Assembly (NCBI RefSeq): GCF_003932785.1
Contig: NZ_RQYT01000014.1
Location: 1-59,252 of the forward strand
Direction: 5' to 3'
Origin: Arachnia propionica
Lineage (GTDB): Bacteria; Actinomycetota; Actinomycetes; Propionibacteriales; Propionibacteriaceae
DNA: 59,252 bases
In this document: positions 29,260 through 29,742 of the stretch, piece by piece
Numbering within the stretch: the stretch's first letter is position 1
Layout of the letters: every line of letters starts with the position of its first letter
Position numbers and translations under genes: made by a program
Notes under the pieces: generated by a model
What the model was told of the DNA's origin: nothing
The model's input: the letters and a program-made list of their open reading frames with translations, nothing else
The model's database searches: none

Positions 29260-29742
29260 ATGACGGTCCCGACGACGAAGCCTCGCACGCAGGCGGCGAA
29301 GGGGCAGACCAAGGAACGCGCCGCCACCGCCCAGGTGGAGCCCGGTGGGGCGCCAGCCAAAGGAGCTCCACCCACCAAACCCGCAGCCGCACCCGCGGCG
29401 ACGGAATCAACCAAGGAAAAGCCAGCAACCAACACCAGAAGGAGTACTCCCATGGCTGATGTCCAGATGATCGCTCTCGGCATGGTCGAGACCAAGGGCC
29501 TCGTCGGCGCCGTCGAAGCGGCCGACGCGATGGTCAAGGCCGCCAACGTCCGCCTCATCGGCAAGGAGCAGATCGGTGCCGGATACGTCACCGTCATGGT
29601 CCGTGGCGATGTCGGCGCGGTCAAGGCCGCCACCGACGCCGGTGCTGCCGCCGCGGGTCGCGTCGGCGAGCTCATCAGCGTCCACGTCATCCCGCGTCCC
29701 CACGGTGACGTCGAGATGATCCTGCCGAGCGCCAAGGGCTGA
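29260..29742 (+). CDS. eutM: Microcompartment hexamer shell protein EutM (BMC-H) with N-terminal extension
   Basis: The full frame gives 160 residues. Residues 65-160 are a standard BMC-H domain (MADVQMIALGMVETKGL, pore region KEQIGAGYV) that forms the hexagonal facets. Residues 1-64 are a disordered-looking, basic segment rich in Ala, Pro, Thr and Lys with no hydrophobic core. Both starts have excellent ribosome-binding sites: AAGGAG 5 nt before the outer ATG, and AAGGAG 7 nt before the inner ATG at 29452. Two products, 160 and 96 residues, are therefore expected, as known for PduB/PduB'. It is the only BMC-H gene in the locus, so the short form must make most facets. Confidence 0.93.
   Translation: MTVPTTKPRTQAAKGQTKERAATAQVEPGGAPAKGAPPTKPAAAPAATESTKEKPATNTRRSTPMADVQMIALGMVETKGLVGAVEAADAMVKAANVRLIGKEQIGAGYVTVMVRGDVGAVKAATDAGAAAAGRVGELISVHVIPRPHGDVEMILPSAKG
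29439..29454 (+). promoter_or_regulatory. Internal ribosome-binding site and start inside the BMC-H gene
   Basis: AAGGAGTACTCCCATG. The Shine-Dalgarno core is written across Arg-Arg-Ser codons (AGA AGG AGT) that are otherwise rare in this genome, which suggests selection for the internal site. The inner ATG begins the canonical 96-residue shell protein. Confidence 0.7.

Follow-up and report, generated by a model that had tools for sequence, protein, structure and literature searches.

The eutM gene in the ethanolamine operon of Arachnia propionica very probably gives rise to two isoforms, of 160 and 96 amino acids (aa), from two in-frame start codons. Judging from sequence data, we lean slightly towards a reading in which this single gene supplies two shell subunits and the long isoform replaces EutK/PduK in the positioning of the compartment. 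The gene lies in a stretch of 59,252 nucleotides (hereafter the window; contig NZ_RQYT01000014.1, assembly GCF_003932785.1) of a 3.49 Mb genome.

The eut locus and the two starts of eutM

The locus comprises EutH, an EutN/CcmL-type BMC-P, EutA, EutB, EutC, EutL, EutE, EutM, EutQ, EutT and a phosphotransacetylase. EutH, EutB, EutC and EutL exceeded their NCBIfam cut-offs, which places the eutM gene of the window in an ethanolamine context; the matches of EutA, EutE, EutQ, EutT and BMC-P were under theirs, EutQ being over its Pfam cut-off. The features of interest are as follows.

22960..23250, + strand: EutN/CcmL-type BMC-P vertex protein (best matches under their cut-offs)
27067..27723, + strand: EutL (BMC-T); gap to eutE of only about 10 nt
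27734..29242, + strand: EutE acetaldehyde dehydrogenase; ATG at 27734 (27731 used in the search), stop 17 nt 5' of the outer eutM ATG
29249..29254, + strand: outer Shine-Dalgarno (SD) sequence AAGGAG, spacing 5 nt to ATG 29260
29260..29742, + strand: whole eutM open reading frame, long isoform (160 codons, 160 aa)
29260..29451, + strand: N-terminal extension of long EutM, 64 codons, Ala/Pro/Thr/Lys-rich, predicted disordered
29439..29444, + strand: inner SD AAGGAG, spacing 7 nt to ATG 29452, within codons AGA AGG AGT
29452..29742, + strand: EutM core (BMC-H), 96-aa isoform from the inner ATG (PF00936, NCBIfam EutM)
29748..30374, + strand: EutQ cupin with N-terminal region, candidate shell-cargo linker (PF06249, 100.4 bits)

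EutM displayed a single PF00936 domain (residues 72-147, 99.8 bits against a cut-off of 24.5), as is expected of a BMC-H protein. The 160-aa protein narrowly missed the cut-off of the NCBIfam EutM equivalog (130.2 bits for 133) and did not reach that of the EutK equivalog (81.3 bits for 218). The initial annotation had described eutM as the only hexamer-type shell gene of the locus, and the remaining PF00936 matches of the window were indeed the two halves of EutL. Canonical EutM proteins of solved structure (PDB 4axj, 3i6p) share the BMC-H core and the position in the eut locus. However, the solved sequences cover no extension before residue 64: all structure matches (45 sequences, E up to 1e-20) aligned solely from this residue of the long form onward. 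An additional PF00936 match of 50.6 bits was found at G000 C1:29434-29625 (L005), on a contig that contains neither the eut locus nor the second BMC locus.

Two further observations concern neighboring genes. EutQ, EutT and a small protein that matches no Pfam family have a common N-terminal motif, approximately TPxARD (window 29748-29900, 30371-30520 and 31980-32243), in which EutQ and EutT are identical at 9 of 24 positions and which the small protein shares more loosely, as judged by eye. The phosphotransacetylase (32245-33957) carries about 245 N-terminal residues without any Pfam family match.

The open reading frame 29260-29742 (+) contains two in-frame ATGs, leading to 160-aa and 96-aa EutM. 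As the initial annotation had pointed out, each ATG has its own AAGGAG, 5 nt upstream in the case of 29260 and 7 nt upstream in the case of 29452, and the codons of the inner site are rare: in the 19 CDS of the window, AGA and AGG account for 5 and 39 of 487 Arg codons and AGT for 20 of 401 Ser codons. With the codon usage of the window, 2.8% of the encodings of the peptide TRRSTP would contain a suitably spaced SD of 6 nt or longer. Internal in-frame ATGs of the other CDS (n = 123) were preceded by an SD of at least 6 nt in three cases and of at least 5 nt in nine. Comparison with 81 internal control ATGs from 12-13 plus-strand genes revealed six that match the inner start of the window in anti-SD pairing, none that is as weakly folded and none that equals it in pairing and folding together.

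Mean SD pairing and folding were -8.2 and -13.0 kcal/mol for the inner start, -9.9 and -20.2 kcal/mol for outer starts, -7.3 and -20.3 kcal/mol for 13 gene starts and -3.9 and -25.9 kcal/mol for the 81 controls. SD pairing alone favors the outer start and folding the inner one. Since mean pairing is stronger at the outer start, the ratio of the two forms is uncertain; the 96-aa form is probably the more abundant isoform. Additionally, a trough in GC3 precedes the inner start in 23 orthologues (a set without L040, cut by a contig end, and L152, with a weak inner site), with values of 0.58, 0.48 and 0.51 in codons -15 to -10, -10 to -5 and -5 to 0, against 0.72-0.83 further upstream, 0.69 in codons 1-5 and 0.83-0.93 from codon 6. 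A weaker dip (0.71) was observed just after the outer start of the same genes.

Distribution of the extension and of both starts

A search of 60 genomes (that of the window, 35 from the same genus and 24 from the same order) gave matches in 25 of them. Further surveys were carried out in the phylum (27 of 246 genomes matched), one family (8 of 21), the class (30 of 394) and the order (47 of 293). In the window and in ten eut-linked copies from the same genus (L010-L019, with EutE upstream), the extension was 30-64 codons long and began with an ATG or GTG, the inner ATG being found at the same position behind AAGGAG or AGGAG at a spacing of 7. None of these copies lacked the extension or carried stops in it, either of which had initially been considered as speaking against a functional long form.

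The second BMC-H group of the same genomes, with cores starting MQEALG and probably belonging to a PDU-type locus, showed no comparable extension; one member, L024, has a GTG with a 4-nt SD 22 codons upstream. Likewise, two orphan copies from the genus (L020 and L034), with no EutE beside them in the DNA examined, had no extension. These orphans share an upstream stretch, GGTAGCATGACAGGTCA, with in-frame stops.

On a larger scale, 43 loci were considered in which all three of EutL, EutE and EutM were readable. They consisted of the window, of 18 loci with both EutE and EutL from a set of 80, which is biased in that it gathers the best matches to the long protein, and of 24 from 28 chosen stretches, most of them holding copies aligned with the EutM core from its first residue onward, together with plain copies. 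Four of the chosen stretches (L222, L229, L233 and L237) were left out for want of EutE or EutL, as was L073 (plain EutM, EutK-like gene present), which had no EutL match. Three loci required individual scoring: L069 was considered as plain, its upstream frame having no SD-bearing start and its EutE spacing being odd, and L108 (ATG overlapping the eutE stop, no clear SD) and L049 (ATG without SD, EutE frame broken) as extended.

Extended eutM genes were found in 30 of the 43 loci, among Actinomycetota, Chloroflexota, Spirochaetota and Clostridia, with extensions of 30-119 residues. In 28 of these 30 loci the outer start was -4 to +30 nt away from the eutE stop (+78 in L236, not measurable in L049); it was preceded by an SD of 5 nt or longer in 25 of the 30. 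An inner SD of at least 5 nt was present in 29, the exception being L213, with AGGA before a GTG. GTG is the inner start of both L213 and L220, for which a script favoring a later ATG had returned no SD. Comparison of orthologues, as suggested in the initial annotation, found the extension and both SD sites conserved. Moreover, the inner SD occurs in three codon phases (24, 5 and 1 loci): it encodes R-S or R-R in the first 24, K-E in four of the next five, the fifth, L213, having E-D in the same phase, and K-G-E in L108. Since the site was kept across phases while the encoded residues differ, selection probably acts on the nucleotide sequence and not on the residues. Propioniciclava tarda DSM 22130 (L039), a cultured organism, has this layout too.

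A second dual-start setting was noticed among Clostridia, in which BMC-H genes carry K/A-rich N-terminal extensions and an inner AAGGAGGT or GGAGGT, the inner SD being 6-8 nt long (L111, L063, L056, L089, L097, L109 and L115). The two that were checked, L111 and L063, lie in glycyl-radical-enzyme loci.

The extension as a protein segment

The initial annotation had described the extension as basic and disordered. Disorder is predicted (pLDDT of about 42), with no predicted helix and 5% hydrophobic residues. The basic character holds for the window (net charge +7), but it was ruled out as a conserved feature since net charge ranged from -7 to +7 over 23 orthologues. Sequence and charge of the tail vary widely and its low-hydrophobic composition persists.

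In all nine pairs of relatives compared, pN of the extension was lower than pS, with ratios of about 0.25 to 0.96 (core: 0 to 0.12), these values being based on alignments built on translations, in which frame-breaking indels could not appear. pN was near pS in the pairs L010-L011 (0.071 and 0.074) and L015-L017 (0.342 and 0.382) and the other seven pairs had ratios of 0.25-0.64. The frame was open from the outer start through to the core in all 23 orthologues. Stops in the other two forward frames, found in 21 and 16 of the 23 regions, are weak evidence of coding because the ATGA at many outer starts itself supplies one. As far as these substitutions indicate, the extension is a protein segment that evolves fast and is nevertheless constrained.

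Wherever the DNA was read, three kinds of N-terminal modules (disordered, Cys/His and helical) were seen to join the same core at the SD-bearing linker. The Cys/His module, in which three Cys are invariant and one His nearly so across 16 sequences, matched DUF5763 below cut-off and occurs in L044, L049 and L050 (Anaerolineae). DUF5763-like or small-zinc-finger-like modules, below cut-off where scanned, were noted in P0114, P0051, L044, L049, L050 and L121-L123. The helical module, found in other actinobacterial family members, was modeled with a pLDDT of about 90 and had no Pfam match. Its homology with the C-terminal tails of EutK-like proteins was not retained, as hhalign gave a probability of 4.5 (E 0.0089; 0.0-0.2 in 20 column-shuffled control runs), which is suggestive at most. 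Foldseek and VIA-align searches with the model of this module returned, among the 50 matches listed, BMC-domain proteins or designed cages, so that the module itself was barely probed.

These data bear on whether one start only could be in use. One may propose that the long form alone is made and that the inner SD is the relic of an ancestral start, as predicted database proteins are mostly long: 118 of the 120 among the matches listed exceed 130 aa, in a search that favors lengths near that of the query and in which some of the 120 are tandem or C-terminally extended proteins. However, in a fast-evolving region a relic SD should decay, and 29 of 30 loci retain the inner SD, which stands behind different modules, is read in three codon phases and lies in a weakly folded region with a GC3 trough; this explanation appears highly improbable. 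Hardly more credit can be given to the reverse case, in which the short form alone is made and the upstream frame is an untranslated or merely regulatory leader. The fast evolution of the extension and the near equality of pN and pS in L010-L011 and L015-L017 are in its favor, but a start codon, usually with an SD, adjoins the eutE stop, the frame stays open through to the core, pN/pS is 0.25-0.64 in the other seven pairs (from translation-based alignments, blind to frame-breaking indels), and in other lineages the extension carries conserved Cys/His or helical modules.

Relation to EutK-like genes and proposed role

EutK is reported to be required for the spatial distribution of Eut compartments and to possess a positively charged C-terminal domain (PMC12487888). 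PduK is likewise described as required for the distribution of Pdu compartments, its tail being proposed to point outward on the concave side (PMC9132943), and in E. coli EutK is given as minor beside EutM, 8 vs 96 (PMC11334477), a paper that also describes Eut compartments in strain K-12 W3110. According to these reports, EutK and PduK are thus minor components needed for compartment distribution, and they carry a long tail, flexible or nucleic-acid-binding-like, on a BMC-H core (PMC12487888, PMC9132943, PMC11334477), as the putative long EutM would. However, they are products of separate genes with a C-terminal tail, whereas in the window the tail is at the N-terminus and would be produced by an alternative start of eutM, the gene of the major hexamer.

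Within the DNA stretch of each locus (only 4.5-10.7 kb for L041, L235 and L226), a further BMC-H gene whose product bears a C-terminal tail, hereafter EutK-like, was found in 12 of 13 plain loci and in none of the 30 extended ones, and the proposed replacement of EutK is based on this distribution. The EutK-like tails are 32-181 residues long and the gene lies directly between eutL and eutE in nine of the 12 loci. A Fisher test of the exclusion gave p = 8.5e-10, a value that ignores relatedness and is inflated by related loci. On a quick EutE tree, obtained with long-branch warnings, the extension changed three times and EutK twice, leaving three independent pairs, two opposed and one undifferentiated, too few for this test (sign test p = 0.5, not significant). 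The exclusion was seen among Clostridia (L075 and L108 vs L118) and in the family of the window (L211 and L212 vs the group of the window); only two independent contrasts carry it, and this small number of events counts against the replacement reading. Further points against a simple replacement rule are the extended loci that contain a second, short BMC-H gene (L042, L044, L049 and L050) and the plain locus L210, which has neither the extension nor an EutK-like tail. Additionally, no EutK is reported in Fusobacterium nucleatum, which has two EutM proteins, one of them bearing an additional helix at its C-terminus (PMC11796344), so that EutK can be absent without an N-terminal extension of the present type.

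Nine tailed proteins were scanned against Pfam, including that of L073, which is outside the 43 counted loci. SAP or Rho_N was detected below cut-off in three (L211, L118 and L073) and HHH_3 well over cut-off in one (L069, E 3.6e-20); tailed proteins of Paenibacillus have Lys-rich C-terminal ends, as seen by eye. The L069 protein (889-1695, +), with a C-terminal helix-hairpin-helix domain (HHH_3) behind its BMC-H domain, is possibly a DNA-binding shell protein.

In the proposed mechanism, ribosomes starting at 29260, 5 nt behind the outer SD, would make the 160-aa EutM with its 64-residue disordered tail, and those using the strong, weakly folded internal start at 29452 would make the plain 96-aa protein. 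As both have the same BMC-H core, they would tile the shell as mixed or separate hexamers. The tail would project into the cytosol from a minority of tiles and do the work of EutK/PduK, contacting the nucleoid or other cell components and thereby spreading and positioning the compartments. With an eutL-eutE gap of only about 10 nt, no EutK-like gene lies in between in the operon of the window; this slot is empty and the tail would be supplied by the alternative start of eutM instead. Provided that two isoforms are made, an outward, EutK-like role of the long one is fairly probable.

The gene logic recalls that of PduB/PduB', described as overlapping genes with an in-frame internal start and a 37-residue N-terminal extension on the long form (PMC9132943, PMC5109269, PMC10100840), eutM also having two in-frame starts with an SD each, here at the sequence level. 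However, PduB is a tandem-domain trimer (BMC-T) and EutM has one BMC domain and is of the hexamer type. The PduB extension is reported as a predicted amphipathic signal helix followed by a linker (PMC12108088), whereas the tail in the window is predicted to be disordered and without helix. The only dual start among the literature matches listed (open-licence full text) was that of PduB/PduB'; none of these matches described two starts or an N-terminal extension for a canonical BMC-H, in agreement with the initial annotation, which knew of none; the matching passages of a catalogue (PMC8217296) and of a taxonomy (PMC4207490) do not mention one either. In the carboxysome protein CcmM, too, long and short isoforms result from an internal start, but CcmM is a scaffold protein and not a shell hexamer.

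Two alternatives accept both isoforms and assign another function to the tail. It could face the lumen and link shell to enzymes, as PduB does in comparison with PduB'. This enzyme docking, which the initial annotation had put forward, can refer to the overlapping-gene logic with a 37-residue extension (PMC9132943). Moreover, the N-terminus of EutQ joins shell and cargo in Salmonella and some Gram-positive EutQ are reported without the helices needed there for linking (PMC12487888), which leaves room for a cargo-linking role of the tail. The orientation of native shells is disputed as well: the PduA N-terminus was located on the concave, cytoplasm-facing side in recombinant shells, and the evidence reported for native shells is mixed or contrary (PMC6109187). 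However, docking through a PduB-like helix is not supported, the tail being predicted disordered with 5% hydrophobic residues and the PduB extension being a predicted amphipathic helix (PMC12108088). The cytosolic PduA N-termini of recombinant shells (PMC6109187) point in the same direction. In addition, EutQ in the window keeps its N-terminal region with an amphipathic-looking stretch (by eye), and the gene absent from extended loci is the EutK-like one, a reciprocal absence that favors a positioning or tether role over enzyme docking. The lumen-facing linker is unlikely. Even less likely, in our opinion, is a tail without any specific partner that serves as a steric or solubility brush, restricting the growth of facets or separating shells: its variable sequence and charge and constant low-hydrophobic composition would fit such a brush, but conserved modules at the same place in other actinobacteria and Anaerolineae suggest specific binding there.

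As for the positioning role, the dual-start design, found in several phyla, may stand in for a separate tail-bearing positioning shell protein. A broader proposal is more speculative and we consider it rather doubtful: at least four phyla would have condensed two shell genes into one, the internal start giving plain tiles and the upstream start tether tiles, with an exchangeable tail (disordered, Cys/His or helical) anchoring the organelle to the nucleoid from outside and an EutK-like gene that became dispensable and is absent, the same trick being used in clostridial glycyl-radical-enzyme compartments. Compartment positioning and the ratio of special to ordinary tiles are largely open questions outside carboxysomes. 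Database entries for extended EutM are suggested to record the long form only, and shell engineers would find here a natural route to displaying tails on the shell. With one gene and a fixed internal start, translation alone would determine the tile ratio and, if the broader proposal is true, dual-start hexamers would offer a general means of fixing the proportion of plain and tethered tiles.
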